Under the pieces are notes generated by a model that was not told where the DNA came from, did no database searches, and was given only the letters and a program-made list of their open reading frames with translations. 64,000 bases of DNA from contig OZ005706.1 of assembly GCA_963930775.1 (NCBI GenBank), forward strand, positions 1,116,001-1,180,000, written 5' to 3'. Numbering within the stretch: position 1 is the stretch's first letter; every line of letters starts with the position of its first letter. The stretch comes from Cliona cf. orientalis. Lineage: Eukaryota; Porifera; Demospongiae; Clionaida; Clionaidae. Position numbers and translations under genes: made by a program. Below, piece by piece: positions 625 through 43,500 of the stretch.

Positions 625-2633
625 CTAATTGACTGCACTGGAGTGATGTCTCATTTTCAGGTCGCTAAGTCTTGCCTCCAAACTTCTAACCTCCGACGAG
701 TAGCTGTTGGCAACCTCCCACGCCACGATGTCACGCAGCTCTTGATGGGACAGCTGGACATTGCATGAGCTCATGCGGTAGTAACACCTAGTCACAAAAA
801 AACACAATAGTGACTATAACTGATTTTTTTTTAATCATTTACCGGTCATACAGCTCGCCGTTAGAATCTTTCTCAGAAATGGTATAAATCTGTCGGCATG
901 GCGACTCCAGTAATGTCAACTCAACCACAAAGTAGCCCTCAGCTATAGCCAGTCTACAAACCATTGAAACAACTCATTATTAACGTAATAACTTGACACA
1001 CACTTCGTCTTATATGTACAATATAATATTATGTTACCATTTCCCACCTTTTGCTGCAATTCAACTGCACAGCCACAGGTACAAAGTGAATCGAGTACAG
1101 GTTGGCAGTTATGATAGGTTCAAAGTCCGTCATCAGGCTGTCGATACCAATACATAGTTTATCCCTCTGGAAAGATAATCAATGGCAACTGCTCATCAAA
1201 TCCACACTCAACTAATGTTACGTGGTACAGTAGAAATTCTCTATTAATTTTGAGATTACCTGCTCTTTGTTCAGCTTGACTCCCTTTACGATCCCATCCC
1301 TCCGCACCCCCATAAAGATGGTCGCTGTCTTTCCGAGGTTCATCATGGAGCAGACACACCTCCTCAGTTCTCTCCTTGATACCCGAGTGACATCTTCAAC
1401 GGGCACAAATGAACGGGTGTCACGCTCAGGACCCCCGGGGAGGGCGCAGTTGACGAGGTAGCATCTGCTCCTCACCACACCACCACTGGCTTCACTTTCA
1501 GCTTCTTTGTTGCCGTCTAGAGTGATGGATAATATGTACGTGGGAATTCAGTTTGGCAGTTGGGCCAAAAACTTCATGAATCGGTACGGGGTTGCCATAC
1601 ATATATATAATATGTGAATATTGGCAGATTTCAATTTGGTAGTTGCAAAGGTCAGCCAAACTTATGTACCTTCTATCAGGAGTTCATCATCATCAGTTTC
1701 TGAGCTGTTTTCAGACATTGTCTCGTCTGTTGTATCTCCCAGGCATCGATAGACAGGATTAGGTAGCACTCTCTCTCCATTTGCCCTCCTCCTGGCTTCA
1801 TATAGCTGCCTATAATAATATACAGTCATTGAGGTCTTGAGGATGTCAGAGCAGACTAGATGTATAAACATAAAGTTACTACACATCACCTTTTCTCCTT
1901 TTGTGGGGAAGGCTTGCTGGGTGATCGCTTTCTGGGTTCAGAAATCTGAGATGTTGCACTAGTTTGGAAATGCCCAGGCTGATGTGCACTATCAAAATTA
2001 ATGTGGTAGGAGGTATTGGACACCAAATTAGGCAGCATTCTACCTAAGCCAAAATAAAGGAATTCCTTATCCTTACACTTTAGGTTTAGGCTCAGCTCTG
2101 AGATGTTCATAGGGCACACTCTTGTCCATAAGTAGTCCACTATTGCTATTGAGAAACATCAATAGTTTATACGCTCATCAATCTTCACTTTCAATGGAAT
2201 CCCTCTATATATTCTGGACACCCTAGGGACACCTTAAAGTTTTCAGACTACACGTAAAGGTGTCCTTCTTTCAGGGGTATAATATAAGTTTTGCATGGTT
2301 TTCTGTGTAGCTGGGACCATGTATTTAAAGGAGGTGTCCTCATTTCAGAGGTGTCATTAAAATTTAATATAGAGGGGCTCCACTGTACAAAATTATGATA
2401 ATATACTTGGTGGATGGCTGGCATGGTCCCTGTAGATGTCTACGTAGCGAACCAATGCACTTAGTAATGCTGGTATTATGTTGGTAGCGAGCCTCTACAG
2501 TTCTGAGGATCTTATAACCATCAGCTTCCGAAAAACGTACAGTATTTTCACTACACTGTATCAGCAGGTTGAGCAAACAGTGCAGCGACTGATCAAGAAG
2601 ATTCTCCGAGATTGTTGACTGCTGGCATACTCC

Positions 2634-2669
<36 letters not shown>

Positions 2670-5268
2670 TTAAGTGAAAATTACGCTTTCACTATGCAAG
2701 CTCACTTAGAAGCACAGTAACAGCCCCTCTTCGTCCTAGCTGTGCTCTCATCTTCTTGCTGACAGAGAGGTTAAGAAGGGCACCAATGCTCTGCTGGACA
2801 ACGCCTTCGTTGGGACACTGATAAAGCTAAAGTGACAACAAAAATCTAATACTGACTTTACCATAACATAATATAATAAATCGACGTTGATCGTACCTCT
2901 AGCAATGCCTCGATTCCCCTCTGTGCAGCAATCTCAGCCCGACAAGCATCGTTTTCAAAAGATAAATTCCGTAGAATACCTGTAGCAGAAATGTCACTCG
3001 TGAACAAATAGATTACTATGAATCAATGAGCACATAACCTGCAACGGCCTCAAGAATGCTTGCTCTTGGCGGCAAGGGTGCCACACCCATCAGCTTGCAT
3101 GGAACTGCCTGCAAATCATACACGTACAGTGTTCAATTTTTGTGTCTAAAACTATAGTTGCATTGTTGGTTGAATTTTTGGTAGGTCAGGCGAAATAACT
3201 ATTGTGAATCCAATAATTTGGAAACGAACGATCCCATAATATTACACTATAGGTCCACATGCATGTAATTAGTCAAATCTAAATAATCACAAATATAGAA
3301 GAACTCAATATAAACCATCCTATGGTACACTCATTCTGTGATAATTATTTTTTTCTTTATAGTGATATACATGTATATACCTGTGGTGGAATTCCCCTGC
3401 ACTCGGGGGGAAGTGAAGCCAGCTGGGACTCCGGGAGGGTCATCATGAACCCATAGTCCACCGCCAATACAATTACCAGCCTGCTACCATCAGTGGCAAG
3501 GTCCGGCAAAATCCTGAGCAGTCTGGCCCTACACCACTGGGCAGAGGAGAGAAAACATGGCGACGACAGAGAGAGCTGAACAGGGTCGTAGTAGGCAGCG
3601 TAGACATCACTTGGAGCGAGAGATAGGTCAGAGTCATCAAAAGAATTAGACAGCGGTGGTGGCTGTAAGGGTAGAAACATAATAATTATTACACAAGCAT
3701 AACAATTCGTAGTCTTTAGGGAGCCTGGGGATGAGTTGGTTGCCCCACAGTTCCCCATTGTCCTATATTGCATCATACTATGGTTGTATGCATAATCATG
3801 ACTCAATTATCAAACAAGCTACACATCGAGTGATACAAATTACCGGTACTACCGTATTGCCTCTAATTTAACGGACATCTCTAATTATCCGGACACCATT
3901 TCGAATTATTTTTTTACCTCTAATTACATCGGACAGTCAATGAAGTTTGAGTTTTTATTGTTTTAATTATCCGGACATTGTTGGACAGCTCGCGCTAGCA
4001 TGGTACTGATCGAGCAAAAATTTGCAATGGACAGCTGCTTCTTTGGTGGTACTGAAGGAGGCGAGTTGTTCTCTTTCCCACCATGAACAGGGAGCTCCAG
4101 GTACCGTCTCATTCTCTCAACCTCTGCAACTGCTCGATCGCACGTCCATTTGACCGAATGCGCATGCGTGAAAGTGTGTTCTAATTCATCGGACACTTCG
4201 AACGCCAACTATTTTCGTGTGCTCTAATTATAGCGGACATTGGCCAAAATAATTATTTTTCTGGTGTCCGATAAATTAGAGGTAATACGGTATAATAATA
4301 TGACATTGTCTTGTAAGCCCATGTATAGCAGATCCACTGACCATATTATCCAGGCTCTCATTCATCTGCTTCATCCTGGGGTCTGCTTTCTCCCTATAAA
4401 ACCGACACCAAACATTGCTCCCATTCTCCACGCTTGTCACAGTCACCCACGTCCACTTTGAACCTTCGGCTGGAAAGGGGGTGTGGTCAGGCCAGACCAC
4501 GCCCTCTTCTATCATGGCTGAACCGATCCACTTCTTATCTTCTGTTGCTAGACTCACGTAAAAGGCAGGATACTGGGCAGTGACAGCGGCATAGTCTCCG
4601 GAAAGAGCGTCAAAGGAGCTCAAAACTGCACCGGAACAGCTCTCTGGTACAAACGTCGCCTTACAGGCCAGCTTCTTACCTAGAGTGAGGCGTTCGAGGC
4701 ACTGTTTTGATTCGAGGCTGAAATGTCCCGAGTTTCGCAAAAACACGCTGGACGTGGCCAAGTTGATGATTTGTTTCACGCCGCCACATTGAGCTAGTCG
4801 GACTTGATTGTCACCATTGAGGTAAGTCAGCTTCTGAAGAACACTCAACACCTGCTCATATACTCCAGTTCGACTCAGATCCCACGATACACGAGGCACA
4901 GCTTCTAGGCCCACTCTCTCCAAAACACTGGGCGATAGGTGTTTCATGAGGAGCTGAAAGAAGCTGTTGACACTTCCGAGTCTTTCTCGACCCTCTTGGT
5001 TACCGTGTACGAGCAGGGCGAGGCAACCAACTACTTTCCCGATTAGAGAATTGTTAGAAGAACATCTTAAGATGCCCAGTAAGGCCTTGACTATTCCCAG
5101 GTCAAAGGCCAAGTTGCGTTCACTCGCTTGACTCTGCGCGCAGTGGTACAGTATGCCACCCAAACGAGATACGATTGGTTCTATGTCTTGTTCGGAGCGC
5201 GATAGATCCGTGAGCATCCCTTGGATTTCCTCAAGATTCTCTTGAACTGAAGAAGATTCCATGATCAT
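625..5268 (-). CDS. ARM-Tudor-ARM-Schlafen-like fusion protein (886 aa, 13 exons)
   Basis: Exons read on the minus strand: 5268-4342, 3662-3381, 3108-3039, 2979-2897, 2826-2706, 2632-2407, 2139-2077, 1988-1890, 1809-1670, 1516-1260, 1166-1048, 953-843, 787-625. All junctions are GT-AG with matching phase, and the lengths sum to 2661 nt. Residues about 10-205 are armadillo-like helices. Residues about 260-410 form an extended Tudor domain, with WCRF, WCRARLLRIL, AVDYGF and ASLPPECRGIPPQ. Residues about 415-560 are ARM repeats (ILRNLSFENDACRAEIA, GALLNLSVSKKMRAQLG). A Lys/acidic linker follows (SENSSETDDDELLIEG). Residues about 690-865 are an AlbA_2/Schlafen-like domain: CVCSMMNLGKTATIFMGVRR, RRDGIVKGV, SIHFVPVAV, CYYRMSSCNVQLSHQELRD. 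The C-terminal domain most resembles SLFNL1-type Schlafen proteins. I cannot place the usual acidic ExxxxEFK nuclease motif, so catalytic activity is uncertain. Tudor domains commonly bind dimethyl-arginine in germline and piRNA proteins, so an RNA-silencing role is inference. The start codon could be 5268 or, two codons later, 5262; the frame is also open upstream. Confidence 0.85.
2191..2387. repeat. Short TIR element (MITE) in intron 6 of the Tudor-Schlafen gene
   Basis: The ends are diverged inverted repeats (left TGGAATCCCTCTATA, right TATAGAGGGGCTCCACTGTA). The interior contains the GGACACC and GTGTCC words and the phrase GTAGCTGGGACCATGT, which recur in the element at 24257-24423. They are therefore one family. 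Confidence 0.6.
3850..4292. repeat. TIR element with TA ends in intron 1 of the Tudor-Schlafen gene
   Basis: The left end TACCGTATTGCCTCTAATTT and right end AATTAGAGGTAATACGGTA are inverted repeats bounded by TA. This fits a Tc1/mariner/pogo-type non-autonomous element, with further GGACA/TGTCC words inside. It contains an 81-codon minus-strand ORF (3963-4208) of unclear origin and no recognisable transposase. Confidence 0.7.
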
Positions 5269-5331: not shown

Positions 5332-7022
5332 TAAACTCCTATGTATCTTTATGGTATATAGCAGGCAGCCAATCAAAGACAATCATTGTTTGCCCATGCC
5401 AAGGGCTATGAAAATGCTTCCAGCTAGTAATGAGAGCTACAACAGTGGCACTGTTGTCATCCATTAGGTGAAATGTCCACGCCTAAATTGTGTGTAATGC
5501 ACCCTAAGTGGTATCGATGTACGCACCATGTCACTTCCAATTCACCTTTGACTACAGTGCTACACAGCAAAAGAGTAGATTTTTTTCTAACTTTGCATGC
5601 ACACTTATTTTTACCTATAATGAATAGAAATACCACTTTTAGCAGTAGTATTAGCGTGCAAAGCGTCAAACAAAGACCGCTCCGTAACAGAAGCTATGAC
5701 GAACTATGACGTTGGTCTGGTATCACGTGCACAATACATAGCAATACAAACGATCAAAAATTACAAGATCGAAGGCTATAGACAAGATGAGGTAAGTTTC
5801 TGAAGGTAGAGAATCGCTCTAGTATGTCTACTTCTACACAGTATTACCGTACGTAGCTAAAACAAGCGACTATCGGACCGCCTAGTGAGGCGGTGACTGT
5901 CAACCCCACAAAAACACTTCGGAGCATTAAAAAGGATTTTGGGCTGCCTATCGTTACTATCTTACCTCGCTTGGACGCCTCAGAAGCGAAGCGCTCCACG
6001 CGTTCAACGCTAACAACTCTGTCCTCGCTGCCTTCTCTTTCCTAGATCGCCAGTGGGCGTGGTCAATGACAACGTCACTATTGTACACGTGCGTTGGGTA
6101 CTACGTCATCAAGCCGAACTTCAACCCGTCTGGATCTGGAGCAGTCGGCGGAAATGTTTGCTTCCGGATTGGGCGTTTCCTGTAAAATATTCGCAGTTCC
6201 ATACATACACTAGGATTATTAATGCATAAGGATGCATAGAGTACAATATTGACTCTTAACTAATACTTTCATGCAAGTTTCTGTGCCTAACGTAAATAGA
6301 CCATATTTTAGGCTATTTCAGTCGATAGCTCCGTGACCCTTTGTAGTTAAGACTTCTTATTTGGCACAAAGATGTATCTAGTTGGTGTCTATCTTCATCT
6401 CAAATCTGGATTCTTAACTATAATCCAATCCCTTGAAATTGTGCCTAACATAAGAATCGGGAATTTTTGGCCATTTTCGCATGCTGAAGCCATATAGAAG
6501 GTGGCATCAACTTTCCACTGCAGATGTAGATAGTCCATCCATTGACCTAACTGGATATCAAATCAAATGTAGAGACATGCAAGTTTAACCACAAAACACT
6601 GCAAAAACCATACAGTGGTAAAAATCTACTCTCTTGCTGTGGAGCACTGTATGTGGGCTGTTCCGGGTGTTCCAATAACAGAACCCATGCATACACATTC
6701 ATCACATGCATGTGCATTGCCTTGTTTAGCCCTGATAACAACACATCAGCGGGATGGCTGAGTTGCTCGATGCGGCATTGCACGTACCGTTGCAGCTTGC
6801 ATTCCATTGAGCAGCTCAGTGATCCAATCACACGAAAACAACAAGGAACTGAATTGCTGTAAACTATTTGGCAAGCGCTGCTCAGTGTTTACAGTGGCAC
6901 ATCTTGTTACATTCCTGTAGATTATGTGTAGTAGTGTGTAGCTACTAGCTGAGCACCCACTCCTGATTTATAGCCAATTGTAAGCATAGAGTCTCTCAGT
7001 TCTTAGATTGAGTTTGTTGAAT
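5332..7022. other. Divergent intergenic region between the Tudor-Schlafen and PH-domain genes
   Basis: No long ORF and no recognisable repeat. A + strand GATGAG|GTAAGT donor near 5791 could be the end of a non-coding 5' exon of the PH gene, but I could not fix a matching acceptor. A short stretch around 5870-6180 is richer in CpG than its surroundings. Confidence 0.35.
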
Positions 7023-8801
7023 ATGTCAGTAAAGAAAGTGGTGCCCCCAGTAGTGATTGCAGACAAAGCTACCAAGCCCATTATGGGCCCATTGGTGGTA
7101 ATGTCTGGTTTTCTCACAAAGAGAAACCGCAAGCTGAATCGATGGAGACAACGTTGGTGGCAGCTGCTTGATAGCGGGATTCTCCTCTACTATAATAGCG
7201 ATGATCGAGCTAAACAGCTTGGTCAGATTGACATCGCACACAGTTGCTATGATGTTAAGCTAGGGAGGGAAAATTGCCCTGGCGTGTCTTTTCCACGAGT
7301 TGCTCCCTCATGTTGCTGTTTATCCTTTACTGTCCTCAAAAGGAGCTACTACCTTTATGCACCGACAGCTGCTGAAGCTACAAAGTGGGCTGAAACGATC
7401 AAGAAAGCATCTAGGGTGCTCAATAGGAGAATAGTTGCAGGAGTTGAGAGAAGGAAAGCTCCCGATCCACCAGGACCACCAAGGCCACCAAGTTGCCCTC
7501 CAAACATGAGAATCAACCGGAATTTTATTCACAGTCGTGCTGAAACATTTTCTGTTTCAAATGCACTTGAAGATAGCTTGGATTTGTCTTTGCAATTTTC
7601 TGGAGGAAGGTCAACTTTTGCAGCTTCGGGGATGAAAATGGCTAGCTCGATGCCCGACCTTTTGGATCGTGCGGGATACTCTCCATCTCCTCCACCAGCT
7701 TCTTCCCAACCTGGCACAAAGAGAAATCCAAACGACCGCCTTTGGCTCGATGGAAGTCCTTACCCAGTCACCACCAGCACATTTGGGCAGACATTTCCTT
7801 CACCACCCATAAGCAGCTGTGCTGAAAGTATTGAAGCTTCTGTAGAATTGCAAGAGCTATCGATTTCACCTATACCATCAGATTCTCATTCTCCAGTAGC
7901 TGCATCAGCAACTTTGCCTACAAAGACTGTTAAATTCCGCAACCAAGAAGCAACGGTGCTCAATGATTTACAACAACAACAATGGGGCTCTGAATCTAAT
8001 ACGAATGGAAAAAGAGTAGTGGTTTCACCAAGGTACAAGCTTCAAAATCGATGCTCCCTGCCTATAATTCGTGAGTCTAGTGCAGAAAGAGTGCAGCTGG
8101 GTGTGATCGCAAAAACCAGTCTACATCACAGACCGGCATCATGTATCCCCAATCCTCTCTCTGCTAAGTTCAGCAGTGCCACAATTCCAAGAGCTAAACC
8201 CATGGCCAGAGTAACAATGGTGCCCGTTTTCCCTGGAGCTGTGTTAGGAAATAACACGAAAAAGAGAGGAATGAATCGCAATTTGGCACGAGGCAAACCA
8301 ATTCAGCCTCCTCAAATATTGCCTAGGCATCGCAAGAGAGCCCAGTCAACAAGCAATCACCTTGAAAACAACAAAGGTGCTGCTTACAGGCCGGTGCCAA
8401 AACCCAGAAAGTCAAAGGGTACGCTAATGGATCCTAATCAGGCTCCACTCAAGAGAGCAATGTCGTGTGACTTCATCAATGAATGCGATAGTAATCATGT
8501 GAACAAGCCAACAAGATTGGAGGATGCTGTCACTCCGCGTATCTTACCCGCTACTTCACCAACAGAGTCGGAAAGAAGTGTCTCACTGACAACATCTGAT
8601 GTGGTCACTGCCACTTTGAATTCACCCCGGGCCTCAGTCCTTCCCAGACGCAAAGCACCAATGCCCCCGACGATGACTGGAGAATCTGCTGTTCCCCCCA
8701 GACCAAAGAGAGACAGTGGCCCGCCAAATTTTGTACCCCCGCCCCCTCCAATTGAAGAATTGGATGGTAGTGTAGGGACTCCTTCAATAAGCTCCTCATA
8801 A
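7023..8801 (+). CDS. PH-domain, proline-rich adaptor-like protein (592 aa, single coding exon)
   Basis: ATG at 7023, stop TAA at 8799-8801, no intron needed. Residues about 27-135 form a pleckstrin-homology domain: it opens SGFLTKRNRKLNRWRQRWW with a typical first strand pair, and its C-terminal helix ATKWAETIKKA carries the near-invariant Trp. PH domains bind phosphoinositides or proteins at membranes. The rest is low-complexity and Ser/Pro-rich, with SH3-ligand-like stretches (RKAPDPPGPPRPP, VLPRRKAPMPP, VPPRPKRDSGPP, FVPPPPPIEEL) and basic patches. That architecture suggests a membrane-recruited adaptor, but I cannot name the family. A few upstream codons are open but lack an in-frame ATG. 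It is divergent from the Tudor gene and in tandem with EMSY. Confidence 0.8.
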   Translation: MSVKKVVPPVVIADKATKPIMGPLVVMSGFLTKRNRKLNRWRQRWWQLLDSGILLYYNSDDRAKQLGQIDIAHSCYDVKLGRENCPGVSFPRVAPSCCCLSFTVLKRSYYLYAPTAAEATKWAETIKKASRVLNRRIVAGVERRKAPDPPGPPRPPSCPPNMRINRNFIHSRAETFSVSNALEDSLDLSLQFSGGRSTFAASGMKMASSMPDLLDRAGYSPSPPPASSQPGTKRNPNDRLWLDGSPYPVTTSTFGQTFPSPPISSCAESIEASVELQELSISPIPSDSHSPVAASATLPTKTVKFRNQEATVLNDLQQQQWGSESNTNGKRVVVSPRYKLQNRCSLPIIRESSAERVQLGVIAKTSLHHRPASCIPNPLSAKFSSATIPRAKPMARVTMVPVFPGAVLGNNTKKRGMNRNLARGKPIQPPQILPRHRKRAQSTSNHLENNKGAAYRPVPKPRKSKGTLMDPNQAPLKRAMSCDFINECDSNHVNKPTRLEDAVTPRILPATSPTESERSVSLTTSDVVTATLNSPRASVLPRRKAPMPPTMTGESAVPPRPKRDSGPPNFVPPPPPIEELDGSVGTPSISSS

Positions 8802-17288: not shown

Positions 17289-20200
17289 CTATACTATAAC
17301 TTTTACGTCTTCCGACGAGTCTTGCGAACAAAAATTGAACAACGGTGTGTCCGAGATAAAACGTAACAATTCATTGTGTTTGTCTGAGTCCTCCTCACAG
17401 AGCACGTACTGCTTGAAGCCATGCAGTACTCCGCTCGGAACAAGTTCCTTGTGCTTCTCTTTGAGAAAAACGAGTGCAGTTTTGCTGCAGATTTTGTCCA
17501 TTGTCCCACTGTTTATGTGCCCAGTTATGATAGCCTTTAACGCATTGACAATTGCTCCCTCCGTGTGAGTGGAGCCAGGTGATTTCCACTCTCTGCTGAA
17601 CTCTTCATTGCACACAATAAGCACTTTGTCACTGCTGCTGACGTGCTTTTCGACCCACTGCGGTATGTCCCCTCTCACTTCAGACTTTGCACTGTACACT
17701 AGCTCTGTATCGTAGACTAGCAGGCTCATCATGGACTGCATGATGCACTGTTGGCTGTGCTCCGAAGTCCCCCACGAGTACAGAAGTAAGAGCCTCTGGG
17801 GGCTCTGTACTTTCGGACTGACCTGTGCCAGTTTGTTTGGAGAATATGACGGCCTCTCAGGTGACTGCAAATGGCGGAGAGCCACTACTGTCATCAATAC
17901 TATGATGAGCAAAACCACAACCACTCCCACTGAGATAACTGCTGCTATTACTACATTTTGCCTCGATATTTGGTCTAGATCTAAAATGTCACTACTTTGT
18001 GTTGTACTCTTGTTCCCCATCATTTGTGTTGTGCCCGCTGAAGAAGGGACTGGCGTTGAGGTAACTGGTGAAAGTGTTGTGGCAGCAACCGTGGAAAAAG
18101 TTCTTCGACTCGGTGAGGAGGATGATATCGTTGATACTATTGATGTGGATGATGTTGTTGATCTTTTTAGACTCGGTGAGGAGAATGATATCGTTGGTAT
18201 TATTGATGAGGATGATGTTGTTGATCTATTACCATCATCACAAGCTGAAACTGAGCTACCTGTTTATAATTCAAAATTATATAATGACTGCTGGTTACAT
18301 ACCCATAATTATTATAGTCTATACTTACTTATTACGAATTTGAAGCTTTTAAAATCTGCACAAACACATTCATATTGCCGAATCTGCGAAAATTTGAGAG
18401 TAATATATGTAATTACTGCATCTGGTACTTGTGAAACATTCCAAACTTTTTAAAATCCTGCTTACCCGGATAAAGTAAGGTGTATCTTGTTCAAGAGTTA
18501 AATTGTGAAGTGTCACCGGCTGTAAATTAATCACAAAAATACCTTATACATCAAGTTACGTTCTACAAATTTTATGGACTTACCCTATGTTGAGTTCTGA
18601 TGTGGTTTGAAACTATTCCGTCAAATTCACCATTGGTTGTGAGATAAAAGTAAAATATTGCCATTGGATTCGGCCTCTCGTATCCTATAATCCCACTCTC
18701 CCACCAAAATGTAGCCAAGTAGGTCGAGTTATCATGGTTACGGCAGACGGAATAATCGAAATTTATTGGTACTGGAACTATAGATTAAAAAAAATGTAAA
18801 TTATTTCCGGGATTCTCAATTGACTTAACGGGAGTGTAAGTAGATATCTGCTCATAATATTTAAGGCGCATTTCCCAAAATAAACATGGCCAGACACTAG
18901 TCAAGATATAACATTATTATGCTGCATACAGTAAATATACTAAGTTTTAGCTTCTTCCCATTGCCATTAGGAACATGACCATGATCTACATTAAGATTGT
19001 ACTTACTGATGTCTACGTCTGGGTTGCCACAACGTTGACAGTTCCCTGGACAGGCATGGTGGCACGATCTCGGTGGGGTAACTGTCACACTCGGCCCATC
19101 GCACCGATTGCTTGGAATCAGCTGCAGTTAGTACCATTAGTATCATGTTTCATCGCGGCAAAGTGACATGCACGGCAACAAATACGGCACACAGCTATGC
19201 AAACATGGACATGTATAGTTACGCCATCTAACTGAGGTAGCATTGTAGGCATTTCTTGAAGACCCACTGTTACACTTGAGCTACCTAACTTGCCCTTGAA
19301 GTAAAAGAAAAGTTTACAGCGAGTACATGTCATAGTGATTATTGAAAGGATACTTTCACTATTGTCATGCAACATGCAGTGAAGGCAAACTTCCAGTAGC
19401 CACACACACACACTCTCCAGGCGCTGATCCAGAAAATTTTCATGGAAGGTGGCTGATGGGGTGGCTACCCATAGTAAACTATACTGGTGGAAGGGGGGTG
19501 GCTGGTTAATAATGGTGGACATCTCCTATACTACAAAGGGGGGTGGCTAGCCACCCTATCCACCCCCTGGATCAGCCCCTGCTCTCATGCTCGAGCATAT
19601 ACCTTGATATGTATGACTGCATTATTTCCTCCAGTATACAGCAGAGTGGCGAACTCGTGTCTATAATGGAAGGTGGTCTGTGCACACAATAATAATATTA
19701 TTAAATATTTTAAGAGTGGTTATCCAGTCGGATTAAACACTTAGCCTAATAATTATCATAATATTATACTATACTTACATTGTCCAACTCTACAACACAG
19801 TGCAGGCACTGTCCACTGCTGTAGTTGCCACATCTGTCCCAGTCAGCCACAGAGCTGCCACCAGACATGATCACCAGCACGTACCCAGGTACGGCAACCC
19901 CTATATAAGCCAGCACGTGCATGGATGCTTAAATTACGGAGACTACTCAATTATCATATGCAACTATGAACACTAGAATAATATTATGATAGATCTAACT
20001 ATTTTGGTAGTCACTACTGATCCGTTAATATACTAATAACCCTCTATCACCTCTAACTATCCCACAATTTGGGGTTGAAGATTATGTTGTTATGGTAACT
20101 GCTACCAAATTATCATATCCCCACTACAAAATTATCACGACTATTGATTTTGTTGATTACTCAGGTGACTCCCTATCACCACATTCTTAGAGCAGCGTGG

Positions 20201-23353: not shown

Positions 23354-26300
23354 TTAAAATCTGCTGCTGATGTGATCAATTCTCTGCGTAAATATAACCA
23401 TAGGACGTCCTAGCAGTAAGCTAGCTAATCTCTCTACGTTGGCTTCACAATTGAGCACAAACGCGTTGCAGTTTTTCAAGCCACCAGGGATGTACCGCGA
23501 GTCCTTTTCGCTGCGAACTACAACGACAAACTTGCTCTCGACTGCACTGCTCAGTCCATGATTCATCTGCCCAGAAACGTGCTGACTCACACTCCGCACT
23601 AGGGACACTTCGTGACACATCTCCTGTCCATCATAGCACCAATCGTCCCTGAACTCCTCATTGCAGATGCACACTACAAACTTTGCCCGGTCCATTTCTC
23701 GTTGCACCCACGTGCTGGGTGTCATTGGTCTTCCGTGGGATTTCCACTGCTCAGGTGTATCCATATCTGATTCCACGCCGTACATGAGTATTTTGATTCC
23801 ATACTCCTTGAGTGGCACAGCTACAAGCTCCACCTGGTCCTCTATGGATGTCCTTTGGGAGCCAACAATTAGCACCTGGTCTGAATCCGTGTGCCATTCT
23901 GCTATAGATTGTGCACGCCCCTCCATAGAAATAATTTGGTGCATTGAAGACGTTGCAGGTACAAGATCTGATATTTTGACACTGTTGTCGGAACTGCTAT
24001 CCACAGGTGGAGTAGAGGCCAGATCGCTGCTGCAGCTGTTGGCAATCCTTGTATGAGAAGATTCTGCCGGAGAGCAAGCCAGCTGATTTTCTGCCGAGTA
24101 ACTGTACCTCTCCTTGATTCTGCACTGACAGTAGACTATTGTTGCCATGGTGATCATCAGAAATACAACCACAGCGCCTGAAGCAGAGCTGGCGATGACT
24201 ATAGTTGTAACTGTAACATGCCGTACAGGTGCAAATAATACTGTCATCATCCATACTACAGTGGAACCCCTCTATAAGGACACCCCTGAAATGAGGACAT
24301 CTCCCTTAGTCAGGACACCACACATGGTCCCAGCTACACGAAGTTGCATACAAAATGAGCCTTAAAACAAAGACACCTTCTTTAATCAGGACACTTGAAG
24401 CAGAACAGAGGGGTTCCACTGTATTTGATATTTGATTTTCTTACCATTGGTGCTGTAGCGGTCAGTGGCAGAGGTGGCTGCTGGGCTAGCATGGCTCGTG
24501 GACGGTGAGGCAGGTGTGGTCAGGTCTGGTATGAATTGTGATGCACTGGCTTGTGCTTCACAGCTGCTTGCCTCGCACCAGATCCGTGTCCTAACCTAGA
24601 ATATTTTAGCAGAAGCATAGGATAAGAATCATCAACTATAATATTATTGCAATATATTTTACACTGGGCTCTAGGAAGCATCTTGGATATGGAGAGGCTC
24701 ACGCAAATTATGGATCCAAAATTTTAAACCACACTAGCTCACACCCATTGGTTGTTAATGTGCATATTAGCTATATCCAATCTACAGCAGCCCACTACAG
24801 TTGTTGTTAGAGTAGTCCAAGCTGTGATAAAGTGAGGTCACAACTGGGCAGCTTGTTTTGAACAATGGGACAAATAGCTACATGCATGTACGTACAATCT
24901 TATCTATCACTTATCATGTCACATGCAAACTCGAAACTCACCGTCACAGTGTAGTTCAGCCCAGGTTCCACGGCGCATGTGACACTGGTCTGGAAGGTTA
25001 GTATAAACAGTACACAATGAATACAATAACTGTGGAGATGTGACAAGTGCTAATTAGCCTCGTGCATGCCTTTTATCTTAGCTCAGTGTAAACTTTCTGC
25101 CCCCTAGAGCAGATGGAAGCTTGAAGACGTTAATATCAATTTTATCACGTAAAGTCTACTAGAAAATCGCTTGTATGCCAGAAGAAACCAATCGACAATA
25201 CTGATCAGTAAATGTAGTAGCAAGCAGTGATATTATTGTTTTACTATAGTAAGCGTTATCTACAACACCCGATAAGATCTTTACCGAGTCAGAAACATTG
25301 AAGGTGTGTGTCCCTTGAGTGGAACTGAGTGTGAGGTGGTAGGTTTTGCCACGGAGAGTCTGGTACTTAAAAGCATCGGGCTTAGACCAAGACACTTGAA
25401 GTGTTGACAGAGCAGAAGTACTAGTTGGCTGTACGGTCAAATTTTTTACTCGTCCAATACTTCCACCTATAGAATGACATTGTGGTACTGCTTTGGTGAA
25501 GTGACACGAAGTAACTATAGTATAGCCTCGTCCCAGGCCCAGTCTCCCCAAACATTGAAAACATGGGAGTGGCCTGGGGACGAGGCTAAATATAGCACAC
25601 GCACACACAAGAAGTATAAACCACCACGAGCACCTACATACTCCATAGTTCACATACTATTGCATGCTAGCTACGTATATATACAATATTTCATGACTGA
25701 ATTATCCATGCACATGAATGTATTATAATATAATTTCTAACCAATAGGTTGATTGCAGAGATGAGAGGGGAAATCATGGTGATTGACAAACTCCAAGCAC
25801 TTAGATCCAATAAAGAAGTTGTGGACGTAGTGAAAGTTCGACCCACTAGAATTCCGTAGACAGAGCTATATAATAATAATTATGATGATGATTGGCCTAT
25901 AGCTAGTAGTGGCTACCACATTAAACAATCGAATTTTTTGGTCGCAGTCTCACGCTAGGAATATACAGGGTGCATGGTGAAAATTTTGTTGCTGTATGTG
26001 ACAATTGCATAGTGTAGCAAAGTGCACTTACATGAAGACTTCCTTGTTCAGCACTGCTGAAATAAGCTGTGCGATTGATAGATACCTATATGGAAAGATT
26101 AGTGCTATAATAATATTATTATTATTACAATGCATGGCTGCACACACCTCATGCCCATTCTGAGTGGAGCCACAGGTACATCTATTACCAATAATCATGG
26201 TCGCTCCATGATCAGTCATCATCATCACATAGTCTATAATATTACATAGACGGTAAAAAAAATAATATGGCATTTGAGGCTTGTCTTATCATATATACCT

Positions 26301-40597: not shown

Positions 40598-43500
40598 TCA
40601 TGCAGATGAATCTGGAGTGTCGATTGTGTATTCATTTGATAGTTCATAATATGGCATCTTAAACACATAATGTACTATAGCCTCAATTTCTTCCACTGTA
40701 AATGATCGAGATTCACTTTGTAAGTACATTGTGGGGATATATTGCCTGTGAGATGGGTTCAAGAGTACAACTGCATATTTGGACAAACTTTCAGCCCTTT
40801 GAATTGTTGCCTGTATTAAGTGTTGTAATGATTTTACTAATGGCAAAGAAGGGCAAGACCGACCCTCCCACTCATCTTGAAACTCCTTGTTGCAGACACA
40901 CAGTACAGTGGTTGCCCTCTTGATCTCACTCTCCAACCATGCAGATGAAGAGCCTTGAATGCATGTGAAATCAGGTGACAATGGATCGATTTCATCATAC
41001 GAGTTTAATTCGGACATCATTATCATGATTGATTCTCGTTCCTTTTCTACAGTGTTGGAGGAATAGATGACTAGCACAGTAGCTTTGCTTTTCTTATCTT
41101 TTGCCGAGGTTTCAGCCTTTTCGTCAAGTATCTCTTGTCCATGTTCACAGTAGCTGCCATCTGTGTATATCATACATGTACAGGTATACAGGGAGAGAAG
41201 ATAACGTGCATTGATAAAATTAATTAGAGGAAAAACTTATTGAATCAGAGGGAAATTCTCCAAAAGAAGTTCTTAATAATATTAAGCAGCTACGAGAAAA
41301 CTGCTGTACTTGTGTATGTATGTATGTATGTATGTATGTATGTATGTATGTAGTGATACGTCGTCCACGTGCTCACTAGTTCATACGCATAATTATTGCG
41401 ACAAAGATCATCAATGTTGGCCATGTATTAACTCTAAATGTAGCTCACCAAAACATGTAGCTCGCATCCAGCTAGAGTAGACCGCTAGAAAACAAGAAAA
41501 GGTAAGGCATCAGAAAAGTTTCTATAGCAAACTTTTAGGCTAGGCCTATAGTCTGGGTGCAAGGACTACATTATGACCTAATTTCAGTAGCTAGCTAGCT
41601 GTACAATTCTGTATCTACATATGTGTAGCCTAGAAGTCATTGTTGCAAAGCTCCTGACGTACTGGTGATGAATCGTGCATGGTACGCAACTGTTATTATT
41701 TTGTACTCCTCATCCCTTGATCTTTATAGTGACAATAGGCTGAATCAGCTGAGCGACAGATAGCCGCGGCTGTTTGTACATCATTGTACTATGAATCAAG
41801 ATAGTAGAGGGGGCAATGCCGCATAGTCTATCAATACTGTGAGCGAAGGCTTGCCCCCTTGATGATTTATATCACTCTATATAGTAAACATAGTACAAGT
41901 ATAAAAAACAAAAAATACACAAACAAGATTTGTAGGGATAGCTAACGTATCACATCCACTATACATCCCTACGCTTGCTTTTTGAGTAGCTGTGCACACA
42001 CATATTTATATATTTATATATGGGGCACATGCATGCAGGAATGGAAAATTAATACTACGGTATATACCCATGGATCAATTAGCGACACTTTACATACTGA
42101 ATCAGAAGTGTATGATATAAATTATCAAGAAAAGCAAGCGTAGGGATGTATAGTGGATGTGATACGTTATCCCTACAAATCTTGTTTGTGTATTTTTTGG
42201 CACTGTCATCCCTACTTCGTCCTTCAATTTTATTCAATTGTTTTTTATACTTGTCACTGTTCTTTTTTTAGTGCCCTCAGGGCCTGGTAGTTCATGATTG
42301 TCACTAATTTTCATCAATGTCACCTAGCTGACTAATCTCGTGGGGACAGAGGCATGTACCATGGTGACCAGTTTGCCTATTCATTGTTTAATATTTAAAA
42401 TTTAATGCATGGAACTAGCTACAATTTCAAAATTTTTTTCTGGACCTAGCTACATCCAACCGTGCTCCAACAATAATACAATATTTATAGGGAAGCAAGT
42501 ACACTACTGATTCAGCATGTTTGTGTGATCTTAGCCTTTGCTATAATACACCCCAAACACACCGTGTGTTCAAACTTGAATTCTCCTGTAAGTGCAAATC
42601 CCAGGCAGTCTTTTGATAGCTAGCTAGGACGTCTTCTTTTGCACCATGCATCAGTGGGGTTCTCGAGACAGCTCAGGTAACCAGCGTCTAGATTGACCTG
42701 CGAATGAAGCCACGCCCCTCGTTATCTCGATCCTGAAGGTGGCTGACCGGCAAACTTGAAAGAAGGCTGTTTAGAACCAAGTAGCGACGAAAGCCTTCTA
42801 TTTCGGGAGCATATTTTACAGGCCAGTAAGCTTACTGTTGGTAAGTAGCCACCATAATCGACACTTCACTGAGCGGATCAGCAGAAAATGGCTAATCAGA
42901 CACACCCACTCGTAAAACGCGTTGTACACACCCACAATTAAGGTAGCATTAAAGTGCGTGGGCGTGAGCGTCAGGATTGGCTAATTCAATTAGCGAATCG
43001 TGAAGGGGCGTGGCCGAAGAGGCCATACGAGTGCTTTTGGTCGAAGGTGGGCGTGTCTAGAATCGGCCAGGGATGATTATGCGCGTGTAATTAGCGACCG
43101 GAAGTGGCCCCTGAAGAAAACACCGGTAATTGCCCACTTCAAAGCAAGATCAAAGCATTCTTTCTTAACTATTAACCGCAACGACTTAAAAAAAAAAAAA
43201 AAAAGCCTTATTAGGCCTAATTAAGCATGTGGGCGTGTTCCTGGCACTGTGTGGAGTGTGTGCGTGTGCGTTTTATTGCTTCCGATTGGGCGTGGCTTCA
43301 CGGGCCAGTGCTTGGATATCGGCGCCTGGGACTTGGCCTCGGCGATGGGTGGGCGTGTCCCGGAAGCGTTGGTGACCTTTGAACCCCGCGAGGAGGCTTT
43401 GGGGGCGTGGCAGGAGGTCAAAGGTGAGGCCGTGTCTGTTAATGAGGCACTGTACGCCGGTGCGATGGAGGGGACCGTACGGCTGGACGGAAGCTGACGA

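Follow-up and report, generated by a model that had tools for sequence, protein, structure and literature searches.

A predicted ARM-Tudor-Schlafen protein in the sponge Cliona cf. orientalis, a candidate non-catalytic half of a split Schlafen nuclease

We analysed a 64,000-nucleotide stretch of the Cliona cf. orientalis genome (contig C18, positions 1116001-1180000; hereafter the window), in which a gene on the minus strand joins a Tudor domain and armadillo (ARM) repeats to a Schlafen-fold domain within one reading frame, as originally predicted from the sequence. Judged from the sequence, the domain order is accompanied by loss of catalytic acids from the Schlafen domain and of cage residues from the Tudor domain, while two other Schlafen genes of the genome, on contigs C3 and C8, appear to retain the acids; no second copy of the fusion was found. 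With a probability of about 0.42, we propose that the protein is a non-catalytic, scaffold-borne Schlafen half-site adaptor that pairs with the C3 or C8 protein.

Gene model and domain composition

The gene model was rebuilt from the raw minus strand, with splice sites picked by eye and the reading frame considered. Thirteen exons running from position 5268 to 625 were consistent in phase (13/13) and separated by GT-AG introns (12/12), giving a coding sequence of 2718 nt and a protein of 905 aa. The thirteen exons in one frame, the start, the stop and the exon 9/10 junction match the earlier model; the length (2661 nt and 886 aa there) does not. Least certain are exon 7, a cassette whose skipping preserves the reading frame, and the 37-nt intron 7. 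The gene and the elements around it, which include two sequences resembling miniature inverted-repeat transposable elements (MITEs), are as follows.

4342-5268, minus: exon 1, start codon; helical/ARM-like block at about residues 5-150 and Tudor N-terminal flank at about residues 266-309 (TDRD1 alignment)
3381-3662, minus: exon 2, Tudor core with WCRARLL, VLAVDYGF and LPPECRGIPPQ (Pfam TUDOR and TDRD1/Tudor-SN alignments)
3039-3108, minus: exon 3, end of the Tudor region (VPCKLMGVAP) and start of the second ARM block
2897-2979, minus: exon 4, second ARM block (Pfam Arm, residues 436-475)
2706-2826, minus: exon 5, second ARM block (Pfam ARM_ARMC5, residues 421-540)
2407-2632, minus: exon 6, end of the second ARM block
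2077-2145, minus: exon 7, 69-nt linker cassette, stop-free in the needed frame and one other
1890-2039, minus: exon 8, linker, Ser/Lys/Pro-rich, open in the needed frame and one other
1670-1809, minus: exon 9, acidic linker (SENSSETDDDELLIE) with one in-frame ATG
1260-1516, minus: exon 10, first half of the Schlafen/AlbA_2 domain (FMGVRRDGIVKGV)
1048-1166, minus: exon 11, Schlafen domain, FVPVAV strand
843-953, minus: exon 12, Schlafen domain, FVVELTL strand
625-787, minus: exon 13, end of the Schlafen domain (CYYRMSS), C-terminus and stop
208-213, minus: AATAAA, the sole A[AT]TAAA hexamer that the window contains 3' of the stop
3850-4292, minus: MITE-like element in intron 1 with 28-nt inverted ends, outside the protein
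2192-2385, minus: older MITE-like element in intron 6, containing ATTAAA at 2368, outside the protein

The Schlafen-like domain had been predicted around residues 690-865, and Pfam SLFN_AlbA_2 indeed matched residues 739-862. The domain cut out alone scored just over the cut-off of 25.3 bits (25.4 bits, E 2e-5), whereas in the whole model it stayed below (21.2 bits, E 4e-4). A stronger test, a profile built only from the Schlafen domains of three other genes of the genome (on contigs C12, C8 and C3), scored the 905-aa model at 59 bits over residues 734-874. The window contains 777 open reading frames that reach 40 aa; the highest-scoring one outside the gene had 6.9 bits, two exons of the gene reached 24.5 and 19.7 bits singly, and 2000 shuffled versions of the region peaked at 6.3 bits. 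These values bear out the C-terminal AlbA_2/Schlafen-like domain. When the window domain was included, the resulting four-domain profile gave 23 solved-structure matches at E<=1, consisting of 14 Schlafens (the top ten and four lower), seven SAMD9 chains and two others, and all seven structures matched by the C8 domain were Schlafens. NCBIfam returned no match for two of the Schlafen domains. A search with SLFN_AlbA_2 across the genome (217 Mb, 149 contigs) yielded three matches and missed the window gene, none of whose exons scores high enough by itself. Two tissue-factor matches obtained by phmmer with the Schlafen region alone against solved structures (E 0.92 and 1.1) were taken as chance. 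We considered a second Schlafen lobe within the linker but discarded it, since a single stretch of the 905 aa matched; the protein carries one lobe, not the two per chain of mammalian Schlafen nucleases.

The Tudor and Arm profiles, whose matches the original prediction had proposed to check, both scored above cut-off in the whole 905-aa model: TUDOR at 350-410 with 34.6 bits (cut-off 23) and Arm at 436-475 with 26.0 bits (cut-off 20.6). In addition, ARM_ARMC5 matched residues 421-540 (E 3e-11, 43.6 bits), under its own cut-off of 79.9, and the ARM block matched structures of designed armadillo, catenin, plakophilin and APC. Two ARM blocks had been claimed; the second is upheld by these scores, whereas for the first we obtained a sub-threshold profile match (residues 42-148 of the whole model, E 0.006) and a low-confidence helical model. 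AlphaFold, run on exon 1 alone, gave a mean predicted local distance difference test (pLDDT) of 44.9, with low-confidence helices at 6-150 and low-confidence strands at 194-260. The best solved relatives of the Tudor domain were Tudor-SN, TDRD1 and Spindle-E (E 0.0004 to 0.02). TDRD1 and Spindle-E are proteins of the PIWI-interacting RNA (piRNA) pathway. The TDRD1 match spans residues 266-418 (E 0.003), covering the N-terminal flank as well as the Tudor core, and comparison of the model with structures and profiles found no match to a C-terminal staphylococcal-nuclease (SN) half; the claimed extension of the Tudor domain is apparent on its N-terminal side.

Searching the genome, we found no second ARM-Tudor gene and no second copy of the fusion. 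Of 52 Tudor matches genome-wide, one was the window gene and none lay beside the Schlafen genes on C3, C8 and C12. Wnt matches, ten in all and spread over three contigs, mark the genome as that of an animal. Contig C12 also holds two frames that run for 4076 and 4173 codons without a stop (C12:644473-655767 and C12:7345417-7355382) and contain many Tudor matches each, which we read as two predicted giant multi-Tudor genes on one contig. Exon 1, one of the thirteen exons, was compared with IMG/VR (7 pattern matches, 0 confirmed) and with GTDB contigs (49 pattern matches, 0 confirmed), and because these collections comprise viruses and prokaryotes, the null result is uninformative on animals. 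In agreement with the initial remark that no protein with this order had been described, no title among the open-access articles listed by our searches describes an ARM-Tudor-Schlafen architecture. It would be a new architecture of known domains, of which unremarked examples may exist in databases.

Catalytic acids and cage residues

The catalytic triad of SLFN13 consists of E205, E210 and D248, according to the excerpted text of PMC5862951. We mapped it through structure chain 5yd0 with an inferred constant numbering offset of 13. The window domain does not preserve this E-E-D pattern: GVRRDG places an arginine at the D248 position, and PERDTRSF replaces the E-x4-E stretch, leaving no acid at E210 in the alignments made, while the position of E205 is ambiguous by one residue. 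On this mapping, at least two of the three catalytic acids are lost. The C8 domain (L006) aligned to 5yd0 keeps E, E and D (ESRVVE, GVND), and the C3 domain (L007) shows the same pattern (EDSRHE ... GVLD). In the C12 gene (L005, C12:1743524-1743925, minus), GVRKTG replaces GVxD and the aspartate is lost; by hand alignment, one of the two glutamates is lost too. The genome therefore looks, from these alignments, to contain at least four single-Schlafen genes, two catalytic and two degenerate. Pfam SLFN_AlbA_2 scored the C3, C8 and C12 proteins at 33.6, 65.8 and 50.5 bits, respectively. In pairwise comparisons the window domain scored best with C3 (53.9 bits), followed by C8 (48.1) and C12 (44.7), and it has one intron in common with C3, in phase 0 at the same aligned position after ...VKGxxxxxxQ; a rough count of introns and positions puts the chance of such a coincidence at about 3%. 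As further observations on these genes, about 40 residues, HCWCD among them, are inserted in the C3 domain, and in the C12 gene the domain is followed by a long tail of low complexity whose end is rich in Tyr, His and Pro.

For the Tudor domain, we considered the SND1 residues that surround the ligand, given as F740, Y746, Y763, Y766 and N768 in the excerpt of PMC12370926. Through the alignment with Drosophila Tudor-SN (FTLDNQWYRA and VLYIDYGN, against FLSSAQWCRA and VLAVDYGF in the window protein), these correspond to F, C, A, Y and F, so that by alignment two of the four cage aromatics and the asparagine are replaced. Because these cage residues are lost, the window Tudor is unlikely to act as a reader of dimethyl-arginine.

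Weighing the explanations

A single transcript is what we infer from the genomic sequence, and that the ARM-Tudor and Schlafen exons are joined in it is quite probable. If instead there were two neighbouring genes or alternative transcripts, which we regard as unlikely, an ARM-Tudor product would end after exon 6 and a SLFNL1-like single-Schlafen protein would start at MSENSSE in exon 9. Exon 9 does contain an in-frame ATG, exons 7-9 form a low-complexity linker with weak coding signal (exons 7 and 8 being stop-free in a second frame), and read-through past exon 6 leads to a stop overlapping ATTAAA at 2368. However, frame and phase are kept across exons 7-9, in each of which the needed frame scores highest, if narrowly. 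No A[AT]TAAA other than the ATTAAA at 2368 occurs in the 890 bases that separate exon 6 from exon 10; this one corresponds to about the chance rate (1 per kb on both strands of the window) and sits inside the MITE-like insert, and the canonical AATAAA (at 213) lies 3' of the Schlafen stop. Other A[AT]TAAA hexamers occur in introns 1 and 12. Moreover, exon 10 needs an upstream exon, because no ATG precedes the Schlafen domain in its open frame.

In the adaptor reading, this gene, found once in the genome, would encode a protein of about 905 residues in which a helical/ARM block, the Tudor domain, a second ARM block, a charged low-complexity linker and one Schlafen-fold domain follow each other. 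The Schlafen domain would supply one half of a composite Schlafen nuclease, the non-catalytic one, and its partner would be a separate single-Schlafen protein with intact catalytic acids, encoded on contig C3 or C8. The Tudor and ARM surfaces would recruit the enzyme to its target, a protein or a ribonucleoprotein, through contacts independent of dimethyl-arginine. The Schlafen pairing, the cleavage of RNA and a possible germline role are what we infer from this arrangement; nuclease activity of the window protein itself is not supported by its residues.

Several results weigh against this reading. The Pfam match of the window Schlafen domain is marginal. The gene models of both proposed partners, C3 and C8, are partial, and when the genome was searched with the window Schlafen domain, C12 came up (E 0.0015) but neither C3 nor C8 did. 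A search with the C8 domain likewise returned, of the other Schlafen genes, C12 only; since these single-domain searches missed known genes, further single-Schlafen genes may exist in the genome. By codon scores the coding frame was best in 8 of 13 exons, tied in one (exon 2) and lost in four (5, 6, 10 and 13), in a codon-usage test of little power whose 10 training frames include four that overlap an opposite-strand long frame and may be non-coding. In mammalian Schlafens both folds belong to a single protein, and to our knowledge the C. elegans PUCH complex is the sole case of a composite Schlafen nuclease assembled from separate chains.

The loss of catalytic acids would also suit a plain scaffold that uses its Schlafen domain solely to bind protein or RNA, has neither a nuclease partner nor a small-RNA link, and acts for example in translation control or ARM-based signalling. 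The resemblance of the ARM block to ARMC5-type repeats and to the designed armadillo, catenin, plakophilin and APC structures fits such a role; on the other side stand the coexistence of single-Schlafen genes with intact acids in the same genome and the best Tudor matches, Tudor-SN, TDRD1 and Spindle-E, and we consider the plain scaffold improbable. More specific is the idea that the protein takes part in PUCH-like processing of piRNA precursors, its Tudor-Schlafen coupling being inherited from early animals. PUCH, a trimer built from TOFU-1, TOFU-2 and SLFL-3 with one catalytic Schlafen chain, cuts capped piRNA precursors, and the C3 and C8 proteins would be candidates for such a chain. In C. 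elegans, an animal without Zucchini, PUCH makes piRNA 5' ends; TOFU-1 has a Schlafen fold but no identified catalytic residues, and it binds the eTudor domain of TOFU-6 away from its degenerate cage (excerpted text of PMC10567574). The non-catalytic Schlafen domain and degenerate-cage Tudor of the window protein mirror TOFU-1 and TOFU-6, and Piwi matches are present (13 on three contigs, 11 above cut-off). However, TOFU-6 has an RRM and belongs to PETISCO (same excerpt), whereas the window protein has ARM blocks in its place, and a Zucchini/PLD6-like gene sets the sponge apart from C. elegans. This open frame of 215 aa combines a single HKD-type motif with a hydrophobic stretch near its N-terminus, and among solved structures it is closest to mitochondrial cardiolipin hydrolases (9lkx, E 7e-35; 4ggj, E 1e-34), the name given to Zucchini/PLD6 in deposited structures. 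Given its presence, a Schlafen complex is not needed for nematode-type piRNA 5' processing, though both could act. We find this idea quite improbable, and a piRNA role of the window protein is not supported. Still bolder, and somewhat less probable again in our estimate, would be a Rosetta-stone relic: one polypeptide or complex of early animals combined a Schlafen lobe devoid of catalysis with a Tudor lacking its cage, and the nematode TOFU-1/TOFU-6 contact would be what is left, after a split, of an ancient composite Schlafen nuclease docked on Tudor and working beside Zucchini. A lineage-specific fusion is equally possible as an ancient Tudor-Schlafen coupling.

If the adaptor reading is true, it would suggest that split Schlafen nuclease assembly is no peculiarity of nematodes, with the C3 and C8 proteins as specific candidate partners. 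If the small-RNA link failed, the protein would still have a new Tudor architecture, one whose methyl-arginine cage is not usable.

Neighbouring features and comparison with known systems

Both MITE-like elements sit in large introns, carry inverted ends and have relatives elsewhere in the genome. The intron-1 element has 39 other copies that are 94-96% identical (40 scored, of 300 first-look candidates), apparently a recent burst, and the intron-6 element has 39 other matches at 67-73% identity (40 scored, of 105). Next to the gene, in divergent orientation (6990-8798, plus), lies a neighbour whose PH domain scores 42.1 bits against a cut-off of 25.1. Further away, three minus-strand frames match SEFIR, at 17292-18263 (25.3 bits), 23357-24271 (20.9) and 40601-41236 (31.4), one of them below the cut-off of 23. 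Two of the three have a hydrophobic stretch upstream, and we read them as predicted IL-17-receptor-like genes spread over about 24 kb.

The Tudor core aligns with those of TDRD1, Tudor-SN (SND1) and Spindle-E, and with TDRD1 the N-terminal flank does too; in contrast to these proteins, the cage is largely lost in the window protein, the C-terminal SN half was undetected and ARM repeats follow directly. With SLFN5, 11, 12, 13 and 14 it shares the AlbA_2/Schlafen family by profile. Mammalian Schlafens combine both folds in one protein, as stated in the excerpt of PMC10567574, and vertebrate Schlafens thus have two lobes per chain, with an intact triad in SLFN13, whereas the window protein has one lobe and a broken triad. 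Vertebrate SLFNL1 resembles it in having a single C-terminal Schlafen domain (excerpts of PMC10567574 and PMC9256597), but its N-terminal domain is called unknown, and a Tudor domain goes unmentioned, in the excerpt of PMC9256597.

The closest parallel is with PUCH and PETISCO. In both the worm and the sponge there is one Schlafen fold per chain, in catalytic and non-catalytic versions, although the worm components are separate proteins while the sponge domains share one frame. ARM blocks occur only in the sponge protein, as far as the excerpted worm text goes; conversely, the RRM belongs to TOFU-6, and a Zucchini-like gene to the Cliona genome. The original prediction described PUCH as docking on TOFU-6, which holds in the excerpt of PMC10567574 only through a TOFU-1 peptide. 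It is therefore TOFU-1 together with TOFU-6, a non-catalytic Schlafen linked to a degenerate-cage Tudor, that the window protein recalls, and we regard the apparent match of both degeneracies, each of them a loss of residues of a kind that converges easily, as the most striking result, and the parallel as closer than first claimed.

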